A DNA stretch of 58,796 bases. Origin: a virus. The position numbers and the translations under genes are program-made. The stretch is from positions 1 through 58,796 of the IMG/VR virus record IMGVR_UViG_3300042890_001480; one strand, given 5' to 3'. Positions 4,184-24,538 of this stretch are shown here, one piece after another (position 1 is the first letter of the stretch; each line of letters begins with the position of its first letter). A model generated the notes under the pieces. The model was not told the DNA's origin. It did not search any database and saw only the letters and a list, made by a program, of their open reading frames with translations.

Positions 4184-4267
4184 TCTCTTTCCATTATAAA
4201 TAAAGTTTGATACACTTATACTTCATTAAAAAAACAATCAAGCCGCTGGGCGGAGAAAAAGGTCTAT

Positions 4268-6202: not shown

Positions 6203-6213
6203 AGGAGTATAAT
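6186..6213 (+). promoter_or_regulatory. Promoter at the end of the reductase gene
   Basis: TTGATA (6186-6191) and TATAAT (6208-6213) are 16 bases apart. The -35 lies inside the last codons of the reductase gene and the start site would be near 6220, giving a structured leader for the holin candidate. Confidence 0.6.
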
Positions 6214-6265
6214 GGAATTGGGGTAAAACCCAAAATTCCTGGGCACAGGGCCCAGAAATAGGAGG
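6214..6265 (+). promoter_or_regulatory. Structured leader of the holin candidate
   Basis: Two hairpins lie between the reductase and the next gene: GGAATT-GGG paired with CCC-AATTCC (6214-6239), and CTGGGC/GCCCAG (6239-6255). They are followed by an AGGAGG site (6260-6265) five bases before the ATG. A four-codon frame (ATG at 6211, MELG, stop) sits directly behind an AAAGGAG. This could be a regulatory leader or an RNA-processing site. Confidence 0.45.
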
Positions 6266-6270
6266 ATCTA

Positions 6271-6498
6271 ATGTCAAAACAAGATCTAAATAATGATGGA
6301 AAGGTAACTATGCAAGAGAAAATTCTCGCAGCATTGTCAAGCTATGGTCGCCACTTTTTAGGTGCGTCTATTGCTCTTTACATGACTGGAAATACTGACC
6401 CAGGAGATTTACTTAAGGGTGGAATTGCAGCATGTCTGCCAGTTATTTTAAAAGCACTTAATAGTAATGAGCCAGCTTTTGGCTTTACAAAAAAGTAA
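6271..6498 (+). CDS. Candidate holin with N-terminal EF-hand loop
   Basis: The 75-residue protein begins with DLNNDGKVTMQE (residues 5-16), which matches a 12-position EF-hand calcium loop (D1, N3, D5, G6, E12). Two moderately hydrophobic segments follow (about 27-42 and 48-64) and the tail is basic. Short two-segment proteins like this are commonly annotated as holins in phages of Gram-positive bacteria. It has a strong AGGAGG site. It lies after the reductase and is separated from the fibre genes by a terminator, away from the muralytic gene at 2548. The holin call rests on size and topology. Confidence 0.55.
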   Translation: MSKQDLNNDGKVTMQEKILAALSSYGRHFLGASIALYMTGNTDPGDLLKGGIAACLPVILKALNSNEPAFGFTKK

Positions 6499-6522
6499 TA
6501 ATTAAATAACGAATTAGGATTG

Positions 6523-6552
6523 CTCCTGTGCTAAAATAAGCATAGGAGTTTT
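6523..6552 (+). terminator. Rho-independent terminator after the holin candidate
   Basis: CTCCTGTGCT (6523-6532) pairs over ten positions with AGCATAGGAG (6539-6548), including one G-T pair, around the loop AAAATA. TTTT follows. The short U-tract suggests partial termination, since no clear promoter is seen before the next gene at 6574. Confidence 0.7.
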
Positions 6553-6573
6553 CCTATTTAGGAGTACTAGCAA

Positions 6574-6921
6574 ATGGCAGGACAAAAAAATTTCGAAGTG
6601 GATCAAAATACCACTTTTACTTTCATTGTTGAATATAAAGACAATGCGGGAGTCCCTATTGTTTTAACTGGGGCAAGCGCTAAACTGCAGGTCCGTGATA
6701 CAAAAGGCGGAACCAAATTAGCTTTTACTCTAACATCACCATCTGGTGGAATTACAATAGATGCTCCTAACGGTAAGTTAACGGTTAGGATGACTCCAAC
6801 CCAAACAAATAAATTATTTTATCCAAAGTCCTCTTATGACCTAATGCTTACCGATTCCAATTCAATTAAGACAAAACTTCTAGAAGGATTTTTGTCTCTT
6901 AGCAGGTCGGTAACAATATGA
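6574..6921 (+). CDS. BppU-like immunoglobulin-fold tail protein
   Basis: The 115-residue protein resembles the N-terminal Ig-like domain of upper baseplate proteins: an opening strand FEVDQNTTFTF, a central GASAKLQVRDTKGGTKLAFT, and a LTVRMTPTQTNKL strand. In lactococcal phages this domain attaches receptor-binding proteins to the baseplate. The AGGAG site is eleven bases before the ATG. It is the first gene of the fibre operon and overlaps the next by four bases (ATGA), which fits a role as the anchor of the adhesin set. Confidence 0.7.
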   Translation: MAGQKNFEVDQNTTFTFIVEYKDNAGVPIVLTGASAKLQVRDTKGGTKLAFTLTSPSGGITIDAPNGKLTVRMTPTQTNKLFYPKSSYDLMLTDSNSIKTKLLEGFLSLSRSVTI

Positions 6922-7382
6922 CAGAATCAGTAATAGTAACACAAGTTGTAAATGATGTAATAGTAACACAAGCCGTAAACGATGTAATTATATCCTCCCC
7001 TGGACCGCAAGGCCCAAGAGGTAAAACTATATTAAATGGCAATGGAGTTCCAGCAGAAAATTTTGGATTAGAAGGCGACTTCTATTATGATAAAAATACA
7101 ACAAGATTTTATGGCCCAAAACTTTCTGATGCTACTTGGACTGGTGCCACAAATTACCTTCTAAATGTATCTACCCTAACCTATCCTTTTTCTATTAATC
7201 AGGTAGTTGCTGTAGGAAACTATTATGCTATTGCTATACCTCACAATTTGGGATACAACCCCAATGTTACTGTAAAAAACAGCGCTGGCGACATATTAGA
7301 AACAGGAATAGATTATAATAGTATTAACCAAATTACACTGACAATGGCTCAACCATTCGGTGGGACAGCTTACCTGTCCTAA
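6918..7382 (+). CDS. Short tail fibre protein with collagen-like turn
   Basis: Residues 4-26 are a two-and-a-half-fold repeat of VIVTQVVND. A short PGPQGPRGK collagen-like stretch follows at about 29-37, then a globular region with the GDFYYDKNTTRFYGPK motif typical of fibre necks, and a C-terminal beta domain (HNLGYNPNVTVKNSAGD). That C-terminus resembles the end of the next protein (HNLGSRTVVVNVYDS), so the two genes share a capping domain. It overlaps its upstream neighbour by four bases. Probably a small trimeric fibre or fibre tip. Confidence 0.7.
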   Translation: MTESVIVTQVVNDVIVTQAVNDVIISSPGPQGPRGKTILNGNGVPAENFGLEGDFYYDKNTTRFYGPKLSDATWTGATNYLLNVSTLTYPFSINQVVAVGNYYAIAIPHNLGYNPNVTVKNSAGDILETGIDYNSINQITLTMAQPFGGTAYLS

Positions 7383-7395
7383 AGGAGAATAGAAA

Positions 7396-8598
7396 ATGGC
7401 AAGATTATTTGTAACTGATATCAATCTTAACAAGAATGAACTTCAGAACGCAAGAATTCAGGGATTAGCTTCAGCACCATCAGCCCCTGTAAACGGGCAG
7501 ATTTATTATGACACATCAAATAACACGATGTACTACCACAATGGACTAGCATCACCAAACGGTCCATGGGTAGCAATGAATGCTTCTCAAGAAGTAATTC
7601 AAGACACCATTGGTGCTTCCGTTGAAGGCGGAGTTGGCTTAACAAGAACATACGTTGACTCAACTGGAGTCACAACAATAGATTTAGATAACACAGCAGT
7701 AACAGCAGGATCTTATGGTTCCTCAACACAAATTCCTACTTTCACAGTAGATGCCCAAGGTCGTTTGACTGCAGCATCAACAGTAACAGTAGCAACAAAT
7801 CTTTCAATTGCTGCAGATACTGGAACAGCTGATACGGTAAGTCTTTTAACAGACACATTTACAATTAGCGGTGGCGAAGGAATTGACACTGCCGTAACAA
7901 ACAATACAATTACAATATCTGGAGAAGATGCAACTACCACTAATAAGGGTATTGCCTCATTTGCAGATGCAGACTTTACAGTAACAACTGGTGCAGTAAC
8001 AATCAAGAATGTTAACCTTGCTACACAGACAACTGGAAACTATATTGCAACTATTGCTGGAACAGCAAATGAAGTTGAAGTTTCAGGTTCAGGTTCAGAA
8101 AACTCTGCAGTAACAATTGGTCTTCCAAATGATGTAACAATCACTAACAACCTTACAGTTGGCGGTAACTTAAACGTAACTGGAACAATCAACTCAGTAA
8201 ACACCACTCAGGTAAATATTGTTGATAATAAGATTAACCTTAATACAGACTTTACAGGAACTCCAACAGCAGATGCTGGTGTCCGTGTAGAGCGTGGAGA
8301 CGGTGCAGATGTTGAAATTCTATGGAATGAAACAAATGATAACTGGACACTTACAAATGATGGTACAAATTACCACGCAATTACACGCAAGTTTACTTCA
8401 ACTGTTGGTAACGGATCATTAACTCAGATTCCAGTAACACACAATTTAGGATCTAGAACAGTAGTTGTAAATGTTTATGATTCAGCAACATATGACACCG
8501 TAGAGTGTGATGTTGTTAGAACTTCAACAACTGTTGTAACACTAGGATTTACAGTCGCACCAGCAGCTGGAGCATATACGGTAGTAATTATAGGTTAA
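7396..8598 (+). CDS. Tail fibre protein
   Basis: This 400-residue protein starts with a conserved fibre N-terminus containing GQIYYDTSNNTMYYHNG, then a beta-rich shaft of threonine, glycine and asparagine. It also has the segment NLTVGGNLNVTGTINSVNTT followed by a DxxxGVRVERG...W region. That segment occurs twice in related form in the 2,204-residue fibre. The C-terminus is a compact beta domain shared with the preceding gene. An AAAGGAG site lies seven bases upstream. No signal or enzyme motif is seen. It is probably a trimeric receptor-binding fibre. Confidence 0.8.
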   Translation: MARLFVTDINLNKNELQNARIQGLASAPSAPVNGQIYYDTSNNTMYYHNGLASPNGPWVAMNASQEVIQDTIGASVEGGVGLTRTYVDSTGVTTIDLDNTAVTAGSYGSSTQIPTFTVDAQGRLTAASTVTVATNLSIAADTGTADTVSLLTDTFTISGGEGIDTAVTNNTITISGEDATTTNKGIASFADADFTVTTGAVTIKNVNLATQTTGNYIATIAGTANEVEVSGSGSENSAVTIGLPNDVTITNNLTVGGNLNVTGTINSVNTTQVNIVDNKINLNTDFTGTPTADAGVRVERGDGADVEILWNETNDNWTLTNDGTNYHAITRKFTSTVGNGSLTQIPVTHNLGSRTVVVNVYDSATYDTVECDVVRTSTTVVTLGFTVAPAAGAYTVVIIG

Positions 8599-8609
8599 GG
8601 GGGCAGTAA

Positions 8610-8849
8610 ATGTCTGTAAAAAGATTAGTCCCTCTTAATGCAGTAGAACTATCCACAGACCCAACGGGTGCACGTCGTGGAGACATTTATTATAATACTG
8701 CTGTAGAAGAACTTAGAGTATATGATGGCGTGTCCTGGACTCCAATATCAGGATTAGCAGACCATCTTCATACGTACGACGGTGCAATTTATTCAGTGGG
8801 CAATATAACCTATCCAATGGATCCTGTAATTGATGGCGGCACTCCATAA
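8610..8849 (+). CDS. Small fibre-associated protein
   Basis: The 79-residue product contains ARRGDIYYNTAVEELRVYDGVSWT, a variant of the neck motif found near the start of many phage fibres (compare GQIYYDTSNNTMYYHNG in the previous gene). It has no shaft, so it looks like a detached fibre N-terminus or adaptor. Its stop overlaps the start of the giant fibre gene (TAATG), so it is probably made in step with it and may link it to the tail. Confidence 0.65.
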   Translation: MSVKRLVPLNAVELSTDPTGARRGDIYYNTAVEELRVYDGVSWTPISGLADHLHTYDGAIYSVGNITYPMDPVIDGGTP

Positions 8850-11800
8850 TGGCTACTAATTACCCTAACTCATTAGATAACTTTACAAATCCAACTTCTG
8901 CCAGCCCAATAAATAGTCCATCTCATTCAGAGCAACATGCAAATGCTAATGATGCAATAGAAGCTATTGAAGGTGAATTAGGAACTAATCCAAAGGGTGC
9001 GAAAGCAACAGTTAAAGTTCGTCTTGATGATGTTGATACTGCAATTGCTACTAAAGCACCTATTGATTCCCCAACATTTACTGGCACAGTAACAATTCCA
9101 TCAGGTTCAGCAATTACTGGTGTTCCGTATCTTGCTACCGCCAATACTTTTACTGGAAATAATACTTTTGCTTCACCAATTGTAGGTTTTGTTGGAACTG
9201 GTGGCACATATTCATCTGCAGCCGTATCTGCATATAACATAATACATTTAAGCCAGGGAATGATTCTTATAAATAGTCAAACTGGTGGCGACTATAACTT
9301 GGCTACAAATACTTATTATAATTCAGGATGGAAATATTTTGAAAGTTCCCCATCAACTCTTTTAAATTTTGGTAATGGAAACATTGACTTTAATACTGCT
9401 GCATCTGGAACTGCTGGAAATACAATAACTTTTACAAGTAAAATGAAAATCAACAATTCTGGAAATGTTACTATAAATGGTTTTGGTGCATCTACCGTAG
9501 GTTTAATTGTAAAAGGCGCAACCTCCCAAACTGCAGATTATTTCCAAATTCAAAATTCATCAGGGACAGTTGTAGTTAAGGCTGATTCCTCAAACAGTAT
9601 TGCAGTGCCATTTGGCCAAATTAGTGCAGCATCAGGATTAATCGGCTCAGGCACAACAAGACTTGGAACTGCAGGCGTTACTGCTTATGCAAGTGCAGCC
9701 ACTAGCAATGGAATTATTGTTCGTGGTGCAGCCTCCCAAACTGCCAAACTTCAGGAATGGCAAAACTCAGCTGGAACTGTCGTTGCAAGTACCAGCGTAG
9801 AAGGTAACGGATATTTTCAAGCAAATTTAAATGCCGCATCTATAGGCGCAGGAAATAATATAGGAGGAGCAAGCTTAACCGCATCTCCTTGGAGTGCTGT
9901 AACTACCGTTTCTATAATTAGAGGATATCCATCTCAGTCTGCCGATTTAACTAAATGGCAAAACTCAGATGGGACTGTGTTGTCTGGAATCAGCCCCATC
10001 GGACAATCTTTTGTTCAGACTACTGCACCCATTACGGCAAGTGCTATATCTCAAAGCATTACTGCTGTTTCATTTACATCAACAACTGCAACATATACAT
10101 TTTCGGCTACTGAACAAACTATTTCTATTGGTGAATACGTTACAGTTTATGGAATAACTCCATCAGGATACAATGGCACATATCAGGTTACAGCAGTTGC
10201 CACTGTTTCTGGTGGTACTTCTTATTCATTCACCGTTGCAAATACCACAAATGCTACTGTCACAGTTGGAACAGGGTACTTTTTTCCCTCTGCTTCTGTA
10301 AGTATTTCAACTAAAAATAAAGCACATACTGGTTTAATTATTAAGGCAGTATCAGGACAAACAGCATCTGTGCTGGAACTTCAAAATTCATTAGGTCAGC
10401 CCGCTACTTGGTTTGATTCAACAGGTGGAATGACAGCATCACAAGCCGTAGTATCAACATTGTATTCAGGTGGATTTATGAATACAGGAACGCTTGGATA
10501 TTTTAATGCTACAACATTTAGTTCATCAGTAATACCAGTAGTAGTTCGTGGAACCACCTCACAGGCAACAGATTTAACTCAATGGCAGAACAGTTCTGGT
10601 ACTTCTTTAGCAAGAATTTCTAATACAGGTATTTTTGTAGGCGGCTCCTTTTCATCTAATGGTTCACAAGCAGCAGGAACAAATATTGCGTCTCAATTTG
10701 GTTCAACATCTGCTACACGTATACCTATGGTTGTATATGGTGCAGCATCACAAACTGCCAACCTTCAGGAGTGGCAGGACAGTGCTGGAGCTGTACTTTC
10801 TAGCATTTCAGCATCTGGAGGATTTACAGTTCCTTCTTTGACGGTTTCTGGAGACTTAACTGTAAACGGAACCACTACAAATATTAATTCTACTAATCTT
10901 GTTATAGAAGATAAAAACATTGTGCTTGGAGATACAACAACTCCAACAGATATAACTGCCGATGGCGGAGGTATTACACTTAAAGGCACAACCGATAAAA
11001 CATTCAACTGGGTTGACTCCACAGACTCTTGGACTTCATCAGAACATTTAAATCTTGCTTCAGGAAAGTCACTATATTTAAACGGAACACTGTTAAAAGA
11101 TGCTACAGAAACTTTAACTAATAAGACTCTTACATCCCCAAAAATTAATGAAGATGTAGCAGTTACAGCAACAGCAACAGAGATTAATGTATTAGATGGG
11201 ATTACTTCAACTACCGCAGAACTTAATATTTTAGACGGGGTAACATCAACAGCAGCAGAACTTAATATTTTAGACGGGGTAACATCAACAGCAGCAGAAC
11301 TTAATATTTTAGATGGAGTTACAGCGACAGCTTTAGAGATAAACGTTCTTGATGGAATTACATCATCTACCGCAGAGATTAATATCCTTGACGGAGTTAC
11401 AGCAGACTATACCGAATTAAATATACTTGATGGAGCAACTCTTTCTACAACTGAATTAAATTATGTAGATGGCGTAACATCATCAATTCAAACTCAGATA
11501 GATACCAAGGCTCCACTTGCTTCTCCTACTTTTACTGGTACCGTCACAATTCCAGCAAATTCAGCAATTACTGGTGTTCCTTATCTTGATACCGCTAATA
11601 CTTTTACCAATAGCCCACAAGAGATTGCAAATACAAGCACAAGCGCTATCCAATTAATTTTAAGAACAAATAGTGGACAAACAGCAGATAATTTCCAAAT
11701 AAAAAATATTACCAACACTGTAAACTTTCGCATCTTTGGTGGTTCATTTGGTGCTGACGGAGTCGCTTCAATCGGTAACGCAACATTACCAACAACGTCG

Positions 11801-14800
11801 CAACTTTACGTACAAGACAATAACGCTGCTAGAGTAGGTTTAATTATTCGTGGCGCTACATCTCAAACTGCTAGCCTACAAGAATGGCACAACTCTGCGG
11901 GAAGTGCGTTGGCTTATGTTGATAGCTCTGGTACTATTCGTTCTGCAATTTTTGGCTCGCTTTCAGCAGGTCTTACGACTATGCGAACAAATTATGATAC
12001 TAACGGAATTGGATTTCAAATAGGTAGCGCTGGTCAAAAAGGATTGGTTATCCGTGGCTTCGCCTCACAAACTGAAAATCTTCAGGAGTGGCAGAACAGT
12101 AGTGGTACGTTGCTGTCCTGGATTCACCCTGCTGGATACCTTACACTAGGTTCTGCAACTACTATTGGTGGAGTTCTTGGTATAAGCACGGGTGTCTCAA
12201 CTGCCAGAGGTATTGTTGTCCGAGGTGCTGCCTCACAATCTGTCAATCTTCAAGAGTGGCAAAACAGTGCTGGAGGGGTAATTGCTTCAATTGGTCCTGC
12301 TGGAAGCATAACAACAAATAGTAATATTACTCAAGGCACTTCTGGAAGAACATTTATCGGTGGAGCAGCAGACGCTGGTGCATTTTTAAATGTAGGTAGT
12401 GCAACGACAACAAGGCAAGTAATTGTAGCACGTCCAAATTTTGCGACACAATCCGCTAGTCTCCAAGAATGGCAAAACTCGGCTGGGACCGTTCTTTCAG
12501 GAATTAATGCTGCTGGACAAATTCATACAGGCACTACTACAAGCATTAATGGTTCAATAACAGGGACAATTATATCGACTACTTATGTATCAAGCACAGT
12601 TGCCACCTTTGAATACAATGGCACATCACTTGTGCAAGTAGGACAGAGAGTAACAATTGGAGATCCTTACGGCAATTATAGTGGTAATGGATTTGCTGGA
12701 ACTTGGACAGTCACAGCAGTTACATCAAATACTTTCACAGTACTTGGCTCAGGGTTTTCAGATTATATTGTTGCGCCAGAAGCAGAGGATGGAACATTTA
12801 CTTTATCTGCCGCTGGAAGTTTTGTTGCTAATACTGCTGTAACTACTCCAGTGGTTGTCAAGGGAGTTACATCACAAACCGCTAATCTTCAGGAGTGGCA
12901 GAACAGTGCTGGTGGAGCTTTACTTAATATAGATTCAACAGGCAATTTAGATATAGGTGCTGGCTCTAGCAATATATGGAAAATAAAAAACCAAACCTCA
13001 GCAGTAATGGAATGGCAACCAAGTCAAGGATTTATGTTTTTGCCATATGGATCATCTAATAGACCCGTAACAATTAAAGGCGCAGCAAGTCAAACAGCCA
13101 ACCTAACCGAATGGCAGGATAGCACTGGAGCTGTACTTTCTAGCATTTCAGCATCTGGAGGATTTACAATACCTTCTCTTACAGTATCTGGAGACTTTAC
13201 TGTAAATGGTACAACAACAAATATAAATACAACTAATTTAATTGTAGAAGATAAAAATATTACTATTGCAGATGTTGCTACTCCTACTGATACTACCGCC
13301 GATGGAGCGGGAATTACAATAAAAGGCGCTACAGATAAAACACTTAATTGGGTACAATCAACAGGCTCATTTACATCATCAGAACCGTTTATAATAAATA
13401 CAAATTCAACAACTAAGCAAAATCTTATTGTTAAAGGAATTGCATCCCAAACTGCTAATCTTCAAGAATGGCAAAATAGTGCTGGCAATGTGATAGCCTC
13501 TGTCTATAAAGATGGCATTTCAATTCAAAACAATGAGACAAACTTTCCACGAGGACTTACTATTACGCAGTCCACCAATAATATTGCAGCAGCAGCATTT
13601 ATTGCACGAAAAAGTAGGGGTACAAATGAATCACCTGTTGTTGTTAATACGGGAGATATTGTTGGTGCCTTTGGATTCACTTCGTATAACGGTACTACTT
13701 ACCCTATAGATACCACACTATTTGGTGCAGCGGTAACAGATAAAAGTGGTTCTACTATCTCACAAAGCCTTTACTTTACTACTGGATCAAACAGTAATGG
13801 TAATTATGTTCCTAATTTACTGGTTTATCATGATGGAAGAGTAGGCGTAGGTGCAGGCTTTGGAAATATAACTTCAACAATTAATCAACCATCTGCTACT
13901 TTGCACATTGGTTCGCTAGCCGCTAACACAGTTGTCGCTCTAGTCAAAGGCGCAGCGTCACAATCAGTTAGCCTTCAAGAGTGGCAGAATAATTCTGGTA
14001 CAGCGTTGGCATCAATCGGAGCAACTGGTGCTTTACGTATTTCAGGTTCATTAGGGTATATGGGAGGCGGAGGAAGTCAATTAGTATTTCAAGCAGGAAA
14101 TAATGCTGCCTATTTTACTGTCACATCTTTGGCGGGGGCGTATCCATCCTTAATCATAAGAAGTATTACATCTCAAACTTCTAATCTTCAACAATGGCAA
14201 AACTCGGCTGGAACTATTTTTTCAGGAATAAATGCCGCTGGACAAATATTCGCAGGGACTACCACAAGCATCAATGGTTCAACTACTACGGAAATCACAT
14301 CGGCTGCATTTACATCAGCTACAGTTGCGGTCTTCACCTATGGCGGCACATCACTTGTGCAAGCAGGACAGGCAGTTACAGTTGCAGGTGTAACAGGTGG
14401 TACATACAACGGTACTTGGACAGTTACAGCAGTTACATCAACAACTTTCACGGTCCTTGGTTCAGGATTTACAGATGTAGCAGGTACAGGTGGAACATTT
14501 ACTTTGTCTGCCGTTGGAAGTTTTGTTTCAGGTACGGCAGCAATTACTCCAATAGTTGTTCGTGGCGCAGCATCACAAACTGCCAATCTCCAAGAGTGGC
14601 AGAATTCTGCAGGGACTATATTGCCAAGCATTGGTCCAAATGGAACAATGAATTTAAAGTCTGTAAGTTCAGCCAATCTTGTAACTTTCTTTAATGGTAC
14701 AAGCGGATTCGGCGCAGGAAACATAAGTTATAATGGAATATTTAATATTAATGCTGCAAATATGGGATTTCCATATACAGCATCTGGCGCAACGCTTTCT

Positions 14801-15463
14801 GTAAATGCAACATCAGCAACAGTAGTTCCAATTACTTCTAGAGGCTTTGCCTCACAAACTGGTGACTTACAGCAATGGCAAAATAGTGCTGGCACTGTAT
14901 TAGCTTCTGTTGCTAGTGGTGGCGGTATTTTGGCAAATTCTTTTAGCGCTGTTAATGGTATTGTAACAGGTTCATTATCGTTTTCTAGCATTTCTTATAA
15001 CGGATTTTCCAATCCTGCTGGAATTCTAACTAATCCAACTGTAGTAATACGAGGAATAGCCTCACAAACTGGTGACTTACAGCAATGGCGGGGTAGTGCC
15101 AATACAATACTTGCAAAAGTTGATGTAAATGGTAATTTTTCTGCAATCTCAAAGTCATTTGATATCCCTCACCCAACAAAAGAAAATATGCGTCTTCGTT
15201 ATGCATCTCTTGAAGGAAATGAGCATGGAATATATGTTCGTGGAATTACAAAAGAAAAAATTATTGAATTGCCAGAATATTGGACTAATTTAGTAGATGA
15301 GTCTACTATTACTGTTTCTCTAACTTCTATTGGTAAATTCCAAAAAGTTTATGTAGAAAAAATTGAAGGTAATAAAATTTATATCGGCGGGAGAGTTAAA
15401 GAAATCTCCTATGCAGTATTTGGAGAGCGTAAAGATATAGATAAACTAATAGTGGAGTACTAA
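8849..15463 (+). CDS. Giant repeat-containing tail fibre, 2,204 residues
   Basis: The N-terminus (to about residue 100) is a fibre attachment region containing SPSHSEQHANANDAIEAIE. The shaft carries about nineteen copies, some degenerate, of a roughly 25-residue unit of the form VVRGAASQTANLQEWQNSAG. They are separated by variable beta-rich inserts and small FTV-type beta modules (GYNGTYQVTAV..., NGTWTVTAV...FTVLGSGF). Near residues 770-885 there are eight LDG repeats (type TAELNILDGVTS). The last 90 residues form a different domain, MRLRYASLEGNEHGIYVRG...IELPEYWTNLVD, which resembles C-terminal domains of marine phage fibres. The protein is probably a long trimeric adhesin with spaced binding sites. 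It overlaps both neighbours by one base. Confidence 0.85.
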   Translation: MATNYPNSLDNFTNPTSASPINSPSHSEQHANANDAIEAIEGELGTNPKGAKATVKVRLDDVDTAIATKAPIDSPTFTGTVTIPSGSAITGVPYLATANTFTGNNTFASPIVGFVGTGGTYSSAAVSAYNIIHLSQGMILINSQTGGDYNLATNTYYNSGWKYFESSPSTLLNFGNGNIDFNTAASGTAGNTITFTSKMKINNSGNVTINGFGASTVGLIVKGATSQTADYFQIQNSSGTVVVKADSSNSIAVPFGQISAASGLIGSGTTRLGTAGVTAYASAATSNGIIVRGAASQTAKLQEWQNSAGTVVASTSVEGNGYFQANLNAASIGAGNNIGGASLTASPWSAVTTVSIIRGYPSQSADLTKWQNSDGTVLSGISPIGQSFVQTTAPITASAISQSITAVSFTSTTATYTFSATEQTISIGEYVTVYGITPSGYNGTYQVTAVATVSGGTSYSFTVANTTNATVTVGTGYFFPSASVSISTKNKAHTGLIIKAVSGQTASVLELQNSLGQPATWFDSTGGMTASQAVVSTLYSGGFMNTGTLGYFNATTFSSSVIPVVVRGTTSQATDLTQWQNSSGTSLARISNTGIFVGGSFSSNGSQAAGTNIASQFGSTSATRIPMVVYGAASQTANLQEWQDSAGAVLSSISASGGFTVPSLTVSGDLTVNGTTTNINSTNLVIEDKNIVLGDTTTPTDITADGGGITLKGTTDKTFNWVDSTDSWTSSEHLNLASGKSLYLNGTLLKDATETLTNKTLTSPKINEDVAVTATATEINVLDGITSTTAELNILDGVTSTAAELNILDGVTSTAAELNILDGVTATALEINVLDGITSSTAEINILDGVTADYTELNILDGATLSTTELNYVDGVTSSIQTQIDTKAPLASPTFTGTVTIPANSAITGVPYLDTANTFTNSPQEIANTSTSAIQLILRTNSGQTADNFQIKNITNTVNFRIFGGSFGADGVASIGNATLPTTSQLYVQDNNAARVGLIIRGATSQTASLQEWHNSAGSALAYVDSSGTIRSAIFGSLSAGLTTMRTNYDTNGIGFQIGSAGQKGLVIRGFASQTENLQEWQNSSGTLLSWIHPAGYLTLGSATTIGGVLGISTGVSTARGIVVRGAASQSVNLQEWQNSAGGVIASIGPAGSITTNSNITQGTSGRTFIGGAADAGAFLNVGSATTTRQVIVARPNFATQSASLQEWQNSAGTVLSGINAAGQIHTGTTTSINGSITGTIISTTYVSSTVATFEYNGTSLVQVGQRVTIGDPYGNYSGNGFAGTWTVTAVTSNTFTVLGSGFSDYIVAPEAEDGTFTLSAAGSFVANTAVTTPVVVKGVTSQTANLQEWQNSAGGALLNIDSTGNLDIGAGSSNIWKIKNQTSAVMEWQPSQGFMFLPYGSSNRPVTIKGAASQTANLTEWQDSTGAVLSSISASGGFTIPSLTVSGDFTVNGTTTNINTTNLIVEDKNITIADVATPTDTTADGAGITIKGATDKTLNWVQSTGSFTSSEPFIINTNSTTKQNLIVKGIASQTANLQEWQNSAGNVIASVYKDGISIQNNETNFPRGLTITQSTNNIAAAAFIARKSRGTNESPVVVNTGDIVGAFGFTSYNGTTYPIDTTLFGAAVTDKSGSTISQSLYFTTGSNSNGNYVPNLLVYHDGRVGVGAGFGNITSTINQPSATLHIGSLAANTVVALVKGAASQSVSLQEWQNNSGTALASIGATGALRISGSLGYMGGGGSQLVFQAGNNAAYFTVTSLAGAYPSLIIRSITSQTSNLQQWQNSAGTIFSGINAAGQIFAGTTTSINGSTTTEITSAAFTSATVAVFTYGGTSLVQAGQAVTVAGVTGGTYNGTWTVTAVTSTTFTVLGSGFTDVAGTGGTFTLSAVGSFVSGTAAITPIVVRGAASQTANLQEWQNSAGTILPSIGPNGTMNLKSVSSANLVTFFNGTSGFGAGNISYNGIFNINAANMGFPYTASGATLSVNATSATVVPITSRGFASQTGDLQQWQNSAGTVLASVASGGGILANSFSAVNGIVTGSLSFSSISYNGFSNPAGILTNPTVVIRGIASQTGDLQQWRGSANTILAKVDVNGNFSAISKSFDIPHPTKENMRLRYASLEGNEHGIYVRGITKEKIIELPEYWTNLVDESTITVSLTSIGKFQKVYVEKIEGNKIYIGGRVKEISYAVFGERKDIDKLIVEY
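10745..11045 (+). repeat. Internal segmental repeat of the giant fibre, copy 1
   Basis: This segment encodes GAVLSSISASGGFTVPSLTV...DKTFNWVDSTDSWTSSE. It is closely matched by the segment at about 13075-13385 (GAVLSSISASGGFTIPSLTV...DKTLNWVQSTGSFTSSE). The DNA is identical over the first stretch (agctgtactttctagcattt and onward). It marks an internal duplication or gene conversion. Confidence 0.7.
11170..11495 (+). repeat. Eight LDG repeats with a perfect 39-bp tandem unit
   Basis: Eight successive 13-residue units of the type TSTAAELNILDGV are encoded here. Two neighbouring units are identical in DNA over 39 bases (11221-11259 and 11260-11298) and a third begins at 11299. This suggests recent expansion by slippage or recombination. 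Confidence 0.8.
13075..13385 (+). repeat. Internal segmental repeat of the giant fibre, copy 2
   Basis: This is the second copy of the segment described at 10745-11045, with the same order of motifs (GGFTIPSLTVSGDFTVNGT, TNLIVEDKNI, GITIKGATDKTLNWV). The differences are scattered, so this is an older duplication with a locally identical start. Confidence 0.7.
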
Positions 15464-16167
15464 TGGCTACTAACTATAATCCTAGCATAGTTAAAAGCGG
15501 ATTGGTTCTTTGTTTAGATCCCGCAAATCCTAGATCATACTCAGGATCTGGTACTACAATAACCGACATAAGCAATTCTGAAAATAATGGAACTTTTAGT
15601 GGCGGCGGACCAGCTTATAGTGCATCAAATAATGGAACATTAGTATTTGATGGCTCTGATGACACTATTACTGTTACAACCAGTAATGGATTTGGAAATT
15701 CTTCATTACCCCCAAATCAATCTATGTCTTTTTGGTATAAGCATGATGACAACAATCAATATGATTTTTTATGTGGATTTAGAAATAATGCAAATTATGA
15801 TTTTTATACTTTAATTGTTGATCAGGCTGGAGGAGACTTCCTTGAAGTAAGAACAAGAACTGGTGGCGGTGGTGCGGCCGATACAAACATTGCCTGGCCA
15901 GCTGCATATAATAATGTTTGGAAACATATATCTGTAACTGCATCTGGATCCCTTGTTACTCTTTATTTAGATGGCATACAAGCAAATTCATCAAATAGTC
16001 TTTCTGGAAATTACGGAGCATCTTCTGGTAATTTTACAGTAGGTAGGTATGCATTCGGTTTTCCAATGAAAGGTTCTATGGGACAAATATTGTTTTATAA
16101 TAGAGCGATAACTGCAGCAGAAGTAAGACAAAATTTTAATGCTACAAAAGGCAGGTATGGATTATGA
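15463..16167 (+). CDS. LamG-like adhesin 1
   Basis: The 234-residue protein is one concanavalin A-like (LamG/laminin-G type) domain. It has the opening GLVLCLDPANPRSYSGSGTT, a NGTLVFDGSDDTITV strand, the MSFWYKHDD strand, a VTLYLDGIQANSS strand and the closing ILFYNRAITAAEVRQNFNATKGRY. Phage LamG domains are usually carbohydrate-binding. It overlaps the giant fibre gene by one base and the next LamG gene by four (ATGA). It has no attachment domain of its own, so it may decorate another fibre. Confidence 0.8.
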   Translation: MATNYNPSIVKSGLVLCLDPANPRSYSGSGTTITDISNSENNGTFSGGGPAYSASNNGTLVFDGSDDTITVTTSNGFGNSSLPPNQSMSFWYKHDDNNQYDFLCGFRNNANYDFYTLIVDQAGGDFLEVRTRTGGGGAADTNIAWPAAYNNVWKHISVTASGSLVTLYLDGIQANSSNSLSGNYGASSGNFTVGRYAFGFPMKGSMGQILFYNRAITAAEVRQNFNATKGRYGL

Positions 16168-16772
16168 GCCTTTCACATTCACCTCAAATTGTTAGAGATG
16201 GTTTAATACTTTGTGTAGATCCAGATAACATGAGGTCTTACAATGGGAGTGGAATCAGTATATTAAATCTAGTAGACGGAACAAGTCAAACACTTAATGG
16301 TACATTTTCAAAGCCAAGCTTAGGAATAAGACTAACAAATACTAATATATCTGGATCTTCAAATATATCGAGGCTAAATATAAACTCTTACGCATCAATC
16401 AGAACAATAGGTGTGTGGGTTAACATAGTTGATAATATAACTGGTAATTACATATTTGATGCAAGAAATGGTGCAGGCGCAGATGGATACGTTTGGAATG
16501 GTGGAATTGGAAGTTTTTGGTCAGGTCTTTCTGTAAACGGACAAAATAAAACAACTCCAACTATTGGGGACTCCTTTGCTACTGGATCTTGGAGATTTTT
16601 GACATATGAAAGTTCTGCTAGTTTTACTGATAACGTAACTATGTTTTCTAGATTTACTAATATTGAAGGCTTAAATTGTACATTTGGACAAATTTTATTT
16701 TATAATAGGGTACTTACAAATGCAGAAATAAATAAGAACTTTAACGCATTAAAAGGCAGGTATTCATTATGA
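16164..16772 (+). CDS. LamG-like adhesin 2
   Basis: This 202-residue paralogue keeps the family ends: GLILCVDPDNMRSYNGSG at the start and QILFYNRVLTNAEINKNFNALKGRY at the end. The middle is shorter and diverged, with the FDG strand poorly conserved. It starts in a four-base overlap with the preceding gene and ends in one with the next, so it is part of a translationally coupled run. Its role is probably binding of a surface glycan. Confidence 0.75.
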   Translation: MSLSHSPQIVRDGLILCVDPDNMRSYNGSGISILNLVDGTSQTLNGTFSKPSLGIRLTNTNISGSSNISRLNINSYASIRTIGVWVNIVDNITGNYIFDARNGAGADGYVWNGGIGSFWSGLSVNGQNKTTPTIGDSFATGSWRFLTYESSASFTDNVTMFSRFTNIEGLNCTFGQILFYNRVLTNAEINKNFNALKGRYSL

Positions 16773-17533
16773 CAAATGAAGCAGGACCTAATATTGTTTA
16801 TAATGGATTGGTGCTTTATTTAGATGCCGCCAATTCAAGATCTTATCCTGGAACAGGAGCAACTTGGACGGACTTAAGCGGAAACTTACAAAATTTTACA
16901 TTATACAACTCTCCAACATTTTCTAGCAACAATGGCGGAGAAATTTTATTTTCTGGAACAAACGATTATGCTAGAATAAGAAATAGCAGCTCTATAGATC
17001 TGTTATCATCAAATGGTACAGTTGAAATTTGGTTTAGATCTATAGGCGGTACTTTAGGCGGAAACTATGCAAGACTAATAAGTTTTTCAAATGAAACAGG
17101 GACTGGCTCCGATACAACATTAACGCAAGGAGTACTTAATGATTTTATCAACTACTTCTGTTTAGTACAAAATCAAACTACACAAAGACTTGCTGTTTGG
17201 TATAAAGATAATCCACAAGGATTTGGATCATCAACTCCAGTTAATACAAACAATTATTTTAATGCTGTAATATCTTGGTCTACTAATGGAGCATCAATGA
17301 CTTTTAATTTTTATTTAAATGGTGTAGTTGCAAATACAACAACTGTTACTCAATCAGGATATAACGCAGATGCATCAACTATAACATTAGGACAAAATGC
17401 AAATGGTGCACTATCTGCCCCAAGTGAAAATTCTTCATGTGCATTTTCATCTGTAAAAATGTACAATAGATCGCTTTTAGCATCAGAAATCTTACAAAAC
17501 TATGCTGCTCTAAAAGGGAGGTATGAATTATAA
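16769..17533 (+). CDS. LamG-like adhesin 3
   Basis: This 254-residue protein is the most canonical of the run: GLVLYLDAANSRSYPGTGAT, WTDLSGN, GEILFSGTNDYARI, the GTVEIWFRS strand, FNFYLNGVVANTT, and the closing VKMYNRSLLASEILQNYAAL. Such single-domain LamG proteins bind sugars in other systems. It overlaps the preceding gene by four bases and the fibrinogen-like gene by one base. Confidence 0.8.
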   Translation: MTNEAGPNIVYNGLVLYLDAANSRSYPGTGATWTDLSGNLQNFTLYNSPTFSSNNGGEILFSGTNDYARIRNSSSIDLLSSNGTVEIWFRSIGGTLGGNYARLISFSNETGTGSDTTLTQGVLNDFINYFCLVQNQTTQRLAVWYKDNPQGFGSSTPVNTNNYFNAVISWSTNGASMTFNFYLNGVVANTTTVTQSGYNADASTITLGQNANGALSAPSENSSCAFSSVKMYNRSLLASEILQNYAALKGRYEL

Positions 17534-18306
17534 TGTCTGTTACATATAATGAAACATTTAAAGGATATAGAACAGCAAAAGAATTATTAATTGCTAAACC
17601 CGAACTTTTAAATAAAGATGGCATTTACCCATTGTGTCCAGATGGAACTTTAAATTCATTAACTAGAGTGTATTGTGATATGACTACAGATGGTGGCGGG
17701 TGGATGCTTGTTGCTAGAAGCAATCAACACGGCTCTGTTGCATTAGGCAAGTGGGGATGGCTTGGAACGGGCACTGGAGAATTAGAAGATTTTTCACAAC
17801 CATATCAAGAGTCGTGGTATACAAAATGGCATTTAAATTCAAATACGTTTACAGAATTTATTTTTGGAAATAGATTAAATGTTTACAATAATAAATGGGG
17901 ACCATTTATATACAAGCACACAATAAACTACACAAATTTATTTACAGTAGATGGCGTTGTGCTGCCAAGTTCAAGGACTGTTTTAAAATTTGATTTATCT
18001 GTATACAACACATCTGAATTTCCAGTAATGCACCAGTATACAGGATATTCTTTATCGGCTCTTTCAGATAATTCTTTTTATTTAAGAGATTCTCCAGGAA
18101 TTGGATATGGCGGATACCCAAACTTCATGAGAACAACATATGTTAATCATACAAATTCATGGCATATTTCTGGACCTTGGGGGGTAACTGGAACTACTGT
18201 ATCTACGTCGCTTACAAGAGGATATGATTCAAATGGTGACTATATTCAAAAAAGCGGTGATACCAATTATGGAGGGGTCAGTCAATATATGATTATGGTA
18301 AGATAA
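17533..18306 (+). CDS. Fibrinogen-like (FReD) domain protein
   Basis: After a short N-terminal helix (residues 1-30), residues 32-66 read DGIYPLCPDGTLNSLTRVYC and then DMTTDGGGWMLVARS. The pattern GxYxLxPxG...VYCDMTTDGGGW is the N-terminal signature of fibrinogen-related domains and intelectins, best known in animals as lectins for acetylated or microbial sugars. Later segments are aromatic and glycine-rich (IGYGGYPNF, YVNHTNSWHISGPWG, ending GVSQYMIMVR). The usual C-terminal calcium-site and disulfide pattern is not clear to me. It sits within the LamG run, coupled to both neighbours by one-base overlaps. A sugar-binding role is inferred. Confidence 0.75.
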   Translation: MSVTYNETFKGYRTAKELLIAKPELLNKDGIYPLCPDGTLNSLTRVYCDMTTDGGGWMLVARSNQHGSVALGKWGWLGTGTGELEDFSQPYQESWYTKWHLNSNTFTEFIFGNRLNVYNNKWGPFIYKHTINYTNLFTVDGVVLPSSRTVLKFDLSVYNTSEFPVMHQYTGYSLSALSDNSFYLRDSPGIGYGGYPNFMRTTYVNHTNSWHISGPWGVTGTTVSTSLTRGYDSNGDYIQKSGDTNYGGVSQYMIMVR

Positions 18307-19550
18307 TGGCATTAACTCATTCAACCTCTAATATAAACACCAATGGATTGTTGTTGTATCTTGATGCTGCTAATAATAAAAGCTGGACTGCTAATACTAA
18401 AAACCTCATTCAGTTAAACCCAACTCCAACATCTGCATCTGGCCATCTTGCGGGTGGAGGATCTGGAAGTATAACTTATGACTCTGCAAATCAAGCAGTT
18501 TTATTTACAAGAGGAGAATATTCTTCCTGGGGGGTATATTTTTATAACAATCAAGTTTTTTCAGGAAACATAGATTCTACTAAAACACATACAGCTTCTT
18601 TTGAATGGTATTCTGAAAGCGATCCTGGTATAGGATATAGGTGGGAGTTGGTTAGGGGGGATTCAGTTGGCACAACAGCTTTTGCAGACGTCTTAGCAAA
18701 TAGCGTTCCTATAGGTAATAACTGGTACAGATTTTCATATACATTTACTCCATTAAATAACGGAAACAATGCTCATTTTAGAGTTATAACACTAATTCCT
18801 AATTTTCAAGGTGCTGCTTTAGAAAGACGTAAAACTTATTTTATGTGGAGAAAATTACAATTAGAACAAAATTCTGTAAGAACAGATTTTGTAGATGGCA
18901 CACAGGCAACAAGTTGGAACGATGTTAGTGGCAACGGAAGGTCTCTGGCAAACTCAAGCTTAAAAGATTATGCTACATTTAATGGTGGCTGCGTTTGGTT
19001 CAGAGGGGATTTTGCAACTAATGGATTCACAATTCCTTCTTCTATGATAGATCTTGAAGCACTTGGGCAAACAAGGAATTTTACCGTTATGTTTGGAGTT
19101 AGAAAAAAATATTATGGTTTTAGTGGCAATAATACTGGTAACGGAGTTATTCTAAATGGCGCAGGAAGTGGTTATGGTCAAGGATGGAGAATAATTGAAG
19201 AAGTTTATGGATCGCCTGGTGCTGTATTTTCTGGAACGTATGGAGTTGGCTTAGCTACTGGAGGGGTTGGTCAAGGAATCATTATATCTGACACTGTTGC
19301 AGATAGACCTGCAATTGTCGCATTTAGCGTTAGTCCTACAACCATTTATGCATTTCTCAATCAAAATTCTGCATCAGTAGCGACCCCAACATATATACCT
19401 GGGTTTCATTTAGGACAAATTGGTACTACAAATTTTGGCGTGGGAGCATTTGCTGGAGATTTTTATTTTATGATGATATATAATCGTGCATTATCTGCTG
19501 CAGAAATATTAGAAAATTACAATGCTTTAAAACTAAGGTACGGATTATGA
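18306..19550 (+). CDS. LamG-like adhesin with inserted carbohydrate-binding-like domain
   Basis: The 414-residue protein begins like its LamG neighbours (TNGLLLYLDAANNKSWTANT) and ends with FYFMMIYNRALSAAEILENYNALKLRY. Between the opening motif and the SWNDVSGNGRSLANSSL strand lies an extra beta-rich block of about 150 residues (about 35-190; GVYFYNNQVF...YRFSYTFTPLN...YFMWRKLQLEQNS). It resembles the carbohydrate-binding-module-like inserts of phage adhesins and also occurs in the next gene. So this is a two-domain adhesin. It is coupled to both neighbours. Confidence 0.75.
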   Translation: MALTHSTSNINTNGLLLYLDAANNKSWTANTKNLIQLNPTPTSASGHLAGGGSGSITYDSANQAVLFTRGEYSSWGVYFYNNQVFSGNIDSTKTHTASFEWYSESDPGIGYRWELVRGDSVGTTAFADVLANSVPIGNNWYRFSYTFTPLNNGNNAHFRVITLIPNFQGAALERRKTYFMWRKLQLEQNSVRTDFVDGTQATSWNDVSGNGRSLANSSLKDYATFNGGCVWFRGDFATNGFTIPSSMIDLEALGQTRNFTVMFGVRKKYYGFSGNNTGNGVILNGAGSGYGQGWRIIEEVYGSPGAVFSGTYGVGLATGGVGQGIIISDTVADRPAIVAFSVSPTTIYAFLNQNSASVATPTYIPGFHLGQIGTTNFGVGAFAGDFYFMMIYNRALSAAEILENYNALKLRYGL

Positions 19551-20731
19551 GTGTAGAATCGGGTCCTAATATTGTTAATGATGGATTATTACTTAATTTA
19601 GATGCCGCAAATTCTAAATCTCATAATCCATCCGAAAATTTAATTCTTGATAGTCAATCATTTGACAATTGGTCTGTTTCTAATACCAAAGTAGCAGCAA
19701 ATCAAATAGAAGCACCAGATGGAACAGTGACTGCGGACTTAGTAAGTAATACTCAATTTCAAATTTCTTCTATTAGTAAAATCGTGGCATTAAGTCAAAG
19801 CACAACATACACATTTAGTCTTTATGTTAAGCCAATAACAATAAATAAAATTGTTGCTATACAGTTTGATACAAGCGGAACTGGAGCAAATTTTACTGTG
19901 CCAATTTTTGACTTAAGCACATTAACATCAAGTGGTGGGGGAACTAACCAAACCATAACTGATGTTGGAAATGGTTGGTACAGAATTGCTGCCACTATTA
20001 CTACTTTAACTGGAGCCAATCCAAACGGCCCTTCCATTTTCCTTGGATCATATGGAACTACAGGAAATTTCGTTCAAATGTATTTTTGGGGAGCACAACT
20101 AACAAGGTCTTTAGGACAAATAGCATACGTAGCAACAACTACAAGTGCTATATCAAGATCAACTGCATGGTCTGACTTAAGCGATAATGGTAACAATGGC
20201 ACAATCACAAATGGATCAACTTATGATCCTTCTAGCCAAGGTTCATTAGTTTTTAATGGAAGTAGTCAATATGTAAATATAAAATCAAATGCTAGAATAT
20301 TATCTAACCTTACATATACAAAACAAGTTTGGTTTAATACAAATAATACAAGTGCATTAAATAATTTAGTTTCAAGCACTCTAGGAGAACATTTTTTATA
20401 TTTAAATGGATTAGCAAGGCCATGGGCTGGGCATCCTCCACAATTTAATTCAGTAGTAAGCGCTACAATTCTTTTAGCAAATACTTGGTATAACGTTGCA
20501 GTAACATTTGATTCTTCAGTTGGCTGGAAAATGTATATAAACGGAGTATTAAATGCTTCAAGTGCCAATCTAAATACTTTTACTCAATTTTCAGACGTAG
20601 CCATTGGAGCGTATCAAGGCGGTGCTTCATTTGCTGGAAACATAAGCAATGCATTAGTATATAACAGAGTACTAACAGACTCAGAAGTACTACAAAATTT
20701 TAACGCTTTAAGGGGCAGATATGGAATTTAA
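19547..20731 (+). CDS. LamG-like adhesin with inserted carbohydrate-binding-like domain (paralogue)
   Basis: The 394-residue protein has the same plan as its upstream neighbour: LamG opening GLLLNLDAANSKSHNPSEN, an insert at about 30-190 (LSQSTTYTFSLYVKP, GNGWYRIAATIT, VQMYFWGAQLTRS), then WSDLSDNGNNGTI, GSLVFNGSSQYVNI, VGWKMYINGVLNASS and the closing SNALVYNRVLTDSEVLQNFNALRGRY. It ends the coupled LamG run that began at 15463. A promoter-like TATAAT and a new ribosome binding site follow. Confidence 0.78.
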   Translation: MSVESGPNIVNDGLLLNLDAANSKSHNPSENLILDSQSFDNWSVSNTKVAANQIEAPDGTVTADLVSNTQFQISSISKIVALSQSTTYTFSLYVKPITINKIVAIQFDTSGTGANFTVPIFDLSTLTSSGGGTNQTITDVGNGWYRIAATITTLTGANPNGPSIFLGSYGTTGNFVQMYFWGAQLTRSLGQIAYVATTTSAISRSTAWSDLSDNGNNGTITNGSTYDPSSQGSLVFNGSSQYVNIKSNARILSNLTYTKQVWFNTNNTSALNNLVSSTLGEHFLYLNGLARPWAGHPPQFNSVVSATILLANTWYNVAVTFDSSVGWKMYINGVLNASSANLNTFTQFSDVAIGAYQGGASFAGNISNALVYNRVLTDSEVLQNFNALRGRYGI

Positions 20732-21514: not shown

Positions 21515-24500
21515 ATGGCAAGAAAAGTATTATTAGAAACTGGATATACATTTAATGCGTCAACCAGAACAATCACTATTCCAAGAATTATTCGTCGTGA
21601 TAGACTGGCACTTATCACAAACACTACCGCAAATCAGGTAATTTATAATTTTTCAGATCCAAGCCTAAGAGCAACAACGTACACAGTAACCCCTGTCGGT
21701 AGCTCTGGATCAACAACTATTGTCCTTAGCTATAATACTACAACCATGTCTAATGCAGACACACTCCAAATTATTATTGATGAATATGATGAGAAATTTA
21801 GCCCATCAGAAACATTTACAGACCCAGTAAGCAGAATGCGAATATCTCAGGGTCAATCTTTAATTGATACAGATTTTGAATACGGTCAACAGACAACAAA
21901 GTGGGAAAACCTAGCCCTTGTTAATAATAGACCGTGGTCATTTGAAGGACAAACAACTTTATCTAACGTAACTGCTATTACAATGTCAGCAGGATCAAGA
22001 ACTGTAACTGTAGCAACAGTAACTCCGCCAGCAGTCGGCACACCAGTATTTATTCGTGATACTAACTTACTCTTTGCAAATGGTAACTTCATAGTAGAAT
22101 CAGTATCATCAGGCACCAGCTTTACATACACTGCCCGTGCTGCAAACTATACATCAATAACAGCACTTTTTGATTCATCTAAAACAGTAGTTACTGCAGG
22201 CTCTCTTTATACACAAGCAGCAATTGGCGGAGCTCCAACATTTACAGTATCGGGAACAGATTTAAGGGTATCAGTAACAACAACAGTCCCACATGGATTA
22301 ATGCCAGGAAATGAAATTGCTGTAGTTGGTATAACTGGAACAAATCCTCCAAATGGTAACTTCTATGTATCTACAGTAACATCACCAACAGCATTTGTAT
22401 ATTATGCAAACTCTTCAGTTGGTAATCCAGCATCATTAACTACAACTTCGGCAATACTTTATGTAAGACCAACATCACTATTTATGCACAGACCATTTGA
22501 CGGAGGAGTACTTTTTGGATCAAATAGCGCATCTCCAAATGTTAGCTCAATTCGTCAAACACGTAGACAGTTTAGATATCAGTCTGGTAAAGGATTACAG
22601 ATTTCATCTGGAAGCTTAATGCGACCTTATTCAACTGTAGATCAACTAACATCTTCAGGAACTACAGTAACTGTTCGTACTCGTGAAGCACATAACATTC
22701 AGCCAGGAGCTCAAGTAATTGTTTCTGGAGCAGTGGAAACAGCATACAACGGAACATTTACAGTAGTATCTGCTCCAAGATTTAATACATTTACTTATAC
22801 TGCAGCAGCAACCCCATCAGCAACACCAGCATCTGGAGACCCTGTTGTTTCAGTTTCTTCTTGGTCTGGTGCAAAAACAAGACTTGGAGCATTTGATAAT
22901 CAAAACGGAGTATTTTGGGAATACGATGGCGCAGTATTGTATGCCGTACGTAGATCTTCTATTTTACAAATTGGCGGAAGAGTATCAGTAACAGCTGGAT
23001 CTAGCACTGTAACACAAACAGATGCAGAATATCCAACCTCATTTGCTAAGCAATTAAGAATTGGAGACATGATTACACTTCGTGGACAATCTTATAAAGT
23101 TATAAATATTGCTTCAGACACATCTATGACGATTAATCCATCATATCGTGGCATATCAAACGTCACATTTGGAACCGTAACAAAAATGGTTGAAACAAAA
23201 ATTGCACAATCAGCATTTAATATTGACAGACTCGACGGAACAGGACCTTCAGGATATGTATTAAACCTAGGTACAATGCAAATGTTTTATGTCGATTATT
23301 CATGGTATGGGGCAGGAACAATTCGTTGGGGAGTTAGAGGCTCTGACGGTAATATAATTTATTGCCACAGAATGTCTAACAATAACATAAACTCTGAAGC
23401 ATATATGAGATCAGGAAACCTTCCTGCTCGTTATGAGACAACCACAGACACCCCAGTTACATTTTTAACAGCTACATTAGCTCAGGCTGCAACATCAATG
23501 ACAGTTAGCAGCACAGCAGATTTTCCAAATAGCGGAGTTTTAATGGTTCGCAATGGAACAATTTCAGAAGGAGTTACTTATACTGGTAAAACAGGAACTA
23601 CATTTACTGGCTTAACTCGTGGACAAGCAGGTTCAGCAGTTGCTGGAGTTACAACAACCTGGGCTTCAGGAGCAGTATCTGGAACAGTTTCTTCAGCATC
23701 AGGTATTCAAATTGGACAACGTGTACATTCATCCACGAGTCCAAATCCAGTTCCAGACGGAACATTTGTGACAGGAATATCAGGAACAACAATTACATTA
23801 AATGAAGCAGTTACAGCTGCTAACCCAAATTTAATATTTGCCCCAATGGGAGTAACAGACTCAGCATTTACTTTTTCTGCTACAGCCCCAACTTCGGTTG
23901 AATTGGCTTACCCAACATTTTCTCCATCAATATCACACTGGGGAACAGCAGCAATTATGGACGGAAGATTTGATGATGATAAGTCACTTGTCTTTACTTT
24001 TGGAACCCCGTCAGCTACAACAGTTGGAGCAGGAGCATCAATTGCTCTTATGTCAATTCGTGTAGCACCATCTGTTGATAACGGACAGATTGGAAACTTT
24101 GGTGCTCGTGAAGTTATAAATAGAATGCAACTTAAACTAGAGTCATTTGGTTTTGTTCAAACTGGAACACCGCAACCTCTACTTATTACATTATTACTTA
24201 ATGGAGTACCATCAACATCTACTGTATGGACAAATGCAGTTGGTAACGCCGTATCTCAAAACTCATCACTTGCTCAAATTGCATCTTTTGCTGCAGGATC
24301 AACTACAATGACTGGTGGTGAAGTTGCTGGAGGTTTCTTTACTGGAGGCACAACAGATAGACTTGATTTGTCAGAAGTTCGTGATCTAGGTAACTCAATA
24401 TTAGGTGGTGGCGGACCAAACGCTAATACAAACGTTTATCCTGACGGCCCAGATACAATGACAGTTCTTGTTAGAAACTTAGGATCAGCTTCCGCAACAG

Positions 24501-24538
24501 TATTCGGACGCTTAGGCTGGACAGAAGCACAAGCGTAA
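21515..24538 (+). CDS. Large fibre protein with DTDFEYG domain, 1,007 residues
   Basis: Residues 1-150 contain MARKVLLETGYTFNASTRTI, then DPVSRMRISQGQSLIDTDFEYG and TTKWENLALVNNRPW, motifs I associate with large virion proteins of marine myoviruses. The rest is a chain of small beta modules of the type VTVATVTPPAVGTPVFIRDTN or AQVIVSGAVETAYNGTFTVV. A larger globular region at about 440-640 includes WEYDGAVLYAVRRSSILQIGGRV and YSWYGAGTIRWGVRG. The C-terminus carries a glycine-rich GEVAGGFFTGGTTDRLDL stretch. It starts one base after the preceding stop. Probably a major adhesin. Confidence 0.75.
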   Translation: MARKVLLETGYTFNASTRTITIPRIIRRDRLALITNTTANQVIYNFSDPSLRATTYTVTPVGSSGSTTIVLSYNTTTMSNADTLQIIIDEYDEKFSPSETFTDPVSRMRISQGQSLIDTDFEYGQQTTKWENLALVNNRPWSFEGQTTLSNVTAITMSAGSRTVTVATVTPPAVGTPVFIRDTNLLFANGNFIVESVSSGTSFTYTARAANYTSITALFDSSKTVVTAGSLYTQAAIGGAPTFTVSGTDLRVSVTTTVPHGLMPGNEIAVVGITGTNPPNGNFYVSTVTSPTAFVYYANSSVGNPASLTTTSAILYVRPTSLFMHRPFDGGVLFGSNSASPNVSSIRQTRRQFRYQSGKGLQISSGSLMRPYSTVDQLTSSGTTVTVRTREAHNIQPGAQVIVSGAVETAYNGTFTVVSAPRFNTFTYTAAATPSATPASGDPVVSVSSWSGAKTRLGAFDNQNGVFWEYDGAVLYAVRRSSILQIGGRVSVTAGSSTVTQTDAEYPTSFAKQLRIGDMITLRGQSYKVINIASDTSMTINPSYRGISNVTFGTVTKMVETKIAQSAFNIDRLDGTGPSGYVLNLGTMQMFYVDYSWYGAGTIRWGVRGSDGNIIYCHRMSNNNINSEAYMRSGNLPARYETTTDTPVTFLTATLAQAATSMTVSSTADFPNSGVLMVRNGTISEGVTYTGKTGTTFTGLTRGQAGSAVAGVTTTWASGAVSGTVSSASGIQIGQRVHSSTSPNPVPDGTFVTGISGTTITLNEAVTAANPNLIFAPMGVTDSAFTFSATAPTSVELAYPTFSPSISHWGTAAIMDGRFDDDKSLVFTFGTPSATTVGAGASIALMSIRVAPSVDNGQIGNFGAREVINRMQLKLESFGFVQTGTPQPLLITLLLNGVPSTSTVWTNAVGNAVSQNSSLAQIASFAAGSTTMTGGEVAGGFFTGGTTDRLDLSEVRDLGNSILGGGGPNANTNVYPDGPDTMTVLVRNLGSASATVFGRLGWTEAQA

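Follow-up and report, generated by a model that had tools for sequence, protein, structure and literature searches.

A predicted intelectin-like fibrinogen-related protein encoded within a LamG cassette array of an uncultivated tailed phage

The window analysed here is the whole 58,796-base contig of an uncultivated virus. Genes for portal, head protease, major head protein, minor tail proteins and a 2387-aa tape measure mark it as a tailed phage, and its head protein is 57-61% identical to those of Streptomyces phages, e.g. Faust and Mildred21. Between two conserved anchor genes lies a variable interval in which a repetitive fibre-like gene is followed by a row of overlapping genes, one of which encodes a protein with a fibrinogen-related domain (FReD). 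The features discussed below are as follows:

7396..8598, + strand: conserved gene, left anchor of the variable interval
8849..15463, + strand: repetitive fibre-like protein of 2204 aa that precedes the array and ends ...FGERKDIDKLIVEY
15463..16167, + strand: LamG cassette 1 (Pfam Laminin_G_3)
16164..16772, + strand: LamG-type cassette 2 (matches the array profile at 2e-39 but no LamG family of Pfam)
16769..17533, + strand: LamG cassette 3, directly upstream of the FReD gene (Pfam Laminin_G_3)
17512..17521, + strand: Shine-Dalgarno-like AAAAGGGAGG within the codons for KGRYEL at the C-terminus of LamG cassette 3, 11 nt 5' of the FReD start codon
17533..18306, + strand: FReD protein of 257 aa with a predicted intelectin-like fold (ORF list, Pfam, NCBIfam, predicted model)
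17611..17712, + strand: N-terminal segment of the FReD gene that is recognisable by sequence, GIYPLCPDG...VYCDMTTDGGGW (NF040941 match)
18306..19550, + strand: LamG-type cassette 4 (Laminin_G_3 17.9 bits, below the cut-off of 27.6)
19547..20731, + strand: LamG cassette 5 (NF048003 head-spike-fibre domain, 5.5e-27, and Laminin_G_3, 1.8e-19)
21515..24538, + strand: conserved virion structural protein (phrog_5838), right anchor of the interval

Upstream of the fibre region, the window also carries glycosyltransferase and ribonucleotide reductase genes (3194-4183 and 4268-6202), and another LamG domain (1.2e-11) is found outside the array in a 586-aa protein encoded at 31316-33076.

The FReD gene is an intact, ATG-started ORF that contains GIYPLCPDG...RVYCDMTTDGGGW, which confirms the stand-alone gene of 257 residues described in an earlier, sequence-only reading of this DNA. 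The same reading had assigned the product to the fibrinogen-related domains, and this assignment is borne out by two curated profiles and agrees with the predicted fold. The search with Pfam Fibrinogen_C (PF00147) that it had proposed yields E=2.2e-6 and 28.1 bits, above the cut-off of 22, with the match confined to profile positions 17-79 of 221; the stronger profile match is that of NCBIfam NF040941 (E=2.3e-12, 46.8 bits), which passes its curated cut-off of 30. When the PDB is searched with phmmer, the best match is tenascin-R (1.8e-9), and the matches to tenascin-R, XEEL, ficolins and fibrinogen all fall on the same N-terminal segment. Residues ~27-98 are thus the sole sequence-level match in profiles and PDB sequences alike and, as had been remarked, the C-terminal elements of fibrinogen are not obvious, the sequence match ending at about residue 98. 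A chance match to the DGGGW motif was considered and ruled out: because the curated Pfam and NCBIfam cut-offs are passed and full-length relatives exist, the FReD assignment goes beyond chance.

We modelled the protein with AlphaFold2 from a phage-dominated alignment of 22 sequences, with no templates, and compared the model with PDB structures by Foldseek and VIA-align. Model confidence is moderate (pLDDT 73.9, pTM 0.80), with low values at residues 203-228 and 241-248 and a poorly modelled C-terminal third; it is around these two stretches that the glycan sites of intelectins are expected. The matches listed consist entirely of FReDs and intelectins, their alignments to the model starting near residue 7 and ending at residue 257, and 152 of the 352 chains aligned to the model reach Z>=8. 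The best match is human intelectin-1 (Z 11.5, 3.8 Å rmsd over 200 residues, residues 7-257), with tenascins within 1 Z, i.e. tied, and ficolins also matching across residues 7-257; the comparison with ficolins and intelectins that had been suggested beforehand thus returns intelectins, tenascins and ficolins with Z up to 11.5. For the model of a homologue (L037), intelectins and the lamprey lectin reach Z 11.4-11.7 and the next FReD 9.4. In the window prediction, where AlphaFold may draw on learned FReD structures once prompted by the N-terminal segment, the FReD fold extends over the whole domain (aligned 7-257, Z 9-11, low pLDDT at 203-228), and we read the modelled protein as an intelectin-like FReD. 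Since it comprises 257 aa and the predicted fold covers residues 7-257, the domain as modelled is complete; a shortened FReD was ruled out on these grounds, and the idea of a shortened or ancestral form is unsupported.

PMC9682848 describes a fibrinogen-like domain in human intelectin-1 at residues 37-82 only. Hence, a sequence signal that fades past the N-terminal segment is expected, and an early end of the sequence match does not imply truncation, since the same holds for the human protein. The intelectin consensus for structural calcium, HENxxxGxCTxGD (PMC9682848), was looked for in the window protein after the GGGW segment and is absent; ARSNQHGSVALGKWGW stands there instead, and the phage family consensus at this position is ARSHPSTVNYNGxNWGW. 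Likewise, the C-terminal third of the family alignment contains no conserved glutamate. For these two reasons we do not file the protein as an intelectin and claim no ligand mechanism. With regard to the calcium site that FReDs have in their P subdomain, the window protein shows D-S-N-G-D at residues 229-233, a stretch that adjoins low-confidence parts of the model.

As to the neighbours, five LamG-type genes had been proposed. Those at 15463, 16769 and 19547 pass Laminin_G_3, while those at 16164 and 18306 miss the Pfam cut-off; a profile made from array genes, some of them from the window itself, matches all five (E 9e-65 to 4e-19). At its N-terminus, cassette 4 weakly resembles the phage head-spike-fibre domain NF048003, with a score below threshold. 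The one-base overlaps that had been noted hold at both FReD junctions (17533 and 18306), but not between LamG genes, where the overlaps are of 4 bases.

Tandem arrays of LamG and FReD genes occur in six or more other phage contigs besides the window. Laminin_G_3 matches number 7-12 in G010, G011, G013, G014, G016 and G018, each of which has at least one FReD gene. Several array contigs look T4-like from the translations of neighbouring genes (ribonucleotide reductase and clamp-loader-like genes, and a tail-sheath-like gene in L178), so the arrays would seem to occur in phages unlike the window's type. One array holds three divergent FReD-type genes (L174:2106-2864, 5647-6366 and 7956-8714), of which one scores under the cut-off of NF040941. 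Junctions within arrays are mainly ATGA or TAATG overlaps, and the codons of the conserved LamG C-terminus NFNALRGRYGI spell GGGAGG or GGAAG; both in the window (15463-20731) and in L171-L178, these dual-use RGRYG codons provide the Shine-Dalgarno sequence of the next overlapping gene. At the conserved C-terminal Arg, AGG is used in 28/55 cases vs 72/540 elsewhere in the same genes, and at the conserved Gly, GGG is used in 25/49 vs 185/2059. A Shine-Dalgarno sequence lies in the C-terminal codons of 44 of the 48 LamG genes that directly precede a gene, vs 1 of 10 others (Fisher p 6e-7, indicative only because the arrays are related).

The FReD genes themselves begin with LamG-type peptides (MSVFSGPN..., MSVTYN...). 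With a LamG set listed by hand, 11 of 13 FReD start peptides outscore all 378 background starts, and FReD N-termini score against background starts as LamG N-termini do (p ~1e-9, the sequences not being independent). LamG and FReD are moreover fused in single proteins of L006-L008, a fusion (~2951-4726) in which a further N-terminal domain (LKKGNFYIGT) is also shared. Altogether, the overlaps, the encoded Shine-Dalgarno sites, the shared start peptide and the fusions are consistent with whole genes being exchanged at LamG junctions.

Full-length phage relatives of the window protein (n=19; 34-48% identity over the whole length) are found in IMG/VR metagenomic contigs, and the family alignment comprises 20 phage members, the window included, and two bacterial ones (L091 and L092). 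In GTDB genomes, one pattern scan returned at least 320 loci that encode relatives; of the 80 loci kept, the majority share just ~50-60 residues. Close relatives in cultured phages were not found, as tblastn with the window protein gave 47-residue matches in Synechococcus phages only and the homologue L037 as query gave no match. The fibrinogen C-terminal domain appears in the names of proteins from Prochlorococcus phage P-SSM4 and Pseudomonas phage PaBG. To call the domain rare in bacteria and phages, as the sequence-only reading did, is thus too strong, given at least 320 GTDB loci, a curated bacterial NCBI model and cyanophage proteins that already bear the name. Considering the 19 full-length metagenomic relatives and the shorter matches in cultured cyanophages and many bacteria, the fold is already known in phages; in both phages and bacteria the domain is known but little described, neither rare nor unknown. 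Literature searches on phage FReDs yielded almost nothing specific: 'fibrinogen-like coiled coil' proteins are listed among the host-recognition genes of metaviromic islands (PMC3909814), and a roseophage 'fibrinogen protein' is confined to subgroups (PMC12629253).

The window copy has peculiarities of its own. Towards the C-terminus, all 19 of the other phage members have a cysteine in each of four alignment columns (230, 231, 252 and 265), in none of which the window protein has one; an N-terminal Cys is present in the relatives L006-L008. In many relatives, an ORF of ~76-86 aa, e.g. MKYTFQILTTQG...APFGYVPYR..., lies directly 3' of the FReD gene. We found this ~84-aa partner ORF in L001, L004, L030 (3756-4010, an example), L031, L035, L036, L037, L040-L043 and L046 and, in a diverged form, in L045. 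Its strong matches all lie directly after FReD genes and none after LamG genes, it has no significant match in Pfam or PHROG, and neither the window nor L002 contains it. At a guess, its product might be a dedicated assembly chaperone or subunit. The loss of these cysteines and of the partner gene could mark the window copy as a decaying cassette, perhaps a non-functional one. We consider this quite improbable, since the ORF is intact and retains the family-invariant residues, a strong Shine-Dalgarno sequence precedes it, and the CC pair is also missing in the two distant bacterial relatives. Little credence is likewise given to a fibrinogen homology limited to the first ~80 residues, with the other two thirds being an unrelated phage tip domain behind a GGGW cap. 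The significant sequence matches of the window protein do end early and its C-terminal third is poorly modelled; yet the structure alignments reach residue 257, with 200 residues superimposed, the full-length alignment is repeated on the homologue L037, and the longest Fibrinogen_C match among the FReD relatives, that of L003, runs from profile position 17 to 175.

A complete, intelectin-like FReD remains our reading of the predicted structure. The locus was compared among 80 relatives of the right anchor gene. LamG genes beside this anchor are sporadic among them, and no FReD was seen at any of the 80, some of the loci ending too short upstream to exclude one. Both anchors were located in 13 relatives, whose intervals measure 3.2-9.9 kb, vs ~14 kb in the window, and differ from it in content; in L181 (anchor 80% identical; 4256-8190) and L198 (5653-8708), tandem glycine-rich genes replace the LamG/FReD array. 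In L177 and L178, too, cassettes are preceded by C-termini similar to that of the 2204-aa fibre-like protein. For a host-recognition locus, one would expect tandem sets of surface-type proteins that change between related phages.

Since the FReD gene belongs to a series of interchangeable adhesin genes at a variable position, recognition of the host surface would be its most likely function, and glycan or cell-surface recognition appears a reasonable role. We thus propose that the complete, intelectin-like FReD is probably a virion-borne adhesin or receptor-binding module, carried as an exchangeable cassette in the LamG array at a variable locus, which the head-spike-fibre domain NF048003 in the cassette at 19547-20731 also supports. 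Judging by locus and neighbours, the protein would be displayed on the virion and bind a glycan of the host surface; cassettes would be exchanged in the array between the fibre gene and the conserved virion structural gene, and the several different cassettes per genome may broaden or hedge attachment. The same head-spike-fibre domain, which points to the head as the site of that protein, and the numerous parallel lectin cassettes per genome could also indicate that FReD and LamG proteins are a virion decoration that sticks phages to environmental glycans (mucus, extracellular polysaccharide) and enriches them close to hosts, rather than determinants of host specificity. This we regard as unlikely: the cassettes of the window, L177 and L178 lie directly 3' of a fibre gene, the varying content of the interval among related phages is more typical of host-recognition loci, and head spikes may themselves bind host receptors.

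As far as found, the phage family of full-length proteins, the intelectin-like fold predicted for it, the partner gene and the coupled cassette array are new. That they amount to one full-length, intelectin-type family of phage lectins, disseminated across unrelated tailed phages in cassettes that combine a LamG-type start peptide with a dedicated partner gene of ~84 aa, is conceivable, though on balance doubtful. Intelectins and ficolins are animal immune lectins for bacterial surface sugars. If phages choose bacteria with the same fold, new glycan binders could readily be drawn from the phage family, which would also offer a way to test ideas on the origins of animal lectins; for the lamprey lectin, a phage origin has already been proposed (PMC9682848). 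With the ribosome-binding site for each downstream gene written into the last LamG codons, inserting or deleting an adhesin gene would be nearly self-contained, and the layout of the array suggests how phages could reshuffle their attachment genes.

Among known systems, the animal FReDs (tenascin-C/R, ficolins, tachylectin 5A, fibrinogen) resemble the window model in fold, with Z 9.3-11.1. They have two conserved disulfides, which are variable outside animals and which cannot both form in the window copy, since Cys35 and Cys48 are its sole cysteines. The intelectins, or X-type lectins (human intelectin-1, 4wmq; XEEL, 4wmo; lamprey lectin, 7e1e), which bind exocyclic 1,2-diols in a calcium-dependent manner, are the best-scoring folds for both predicted models and share with the window protein a fibrinogen resemblance that is limited, by sequence, to the N-terminal segment; they differ from it in an identity of only ~13-17% and in their calcium consensus. 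The cyanophage FReDs (phrog_10681; S-ShM2 SShM2_035; P-SSM4 Q58LR8) have the N-terminal motif in common with the window protein, but sequence similarity is restricted to ~47 residues. In S-ShM2, the gene lies near a T4-like fibre, with no LamG array annotated in the region shown, and the predicted fold of its product resembles the window model (Foldseek E 2e-6). Finally, NF040941 (GGGWT_bact, fibrinogen-like YCDxxxxGGGW), against which the window protein scores well above the cut-off (46.8 vs 30 bits), spans only a 46-residue N-terminal segment, whereas the conserved unit of the phage family is 250 residues.
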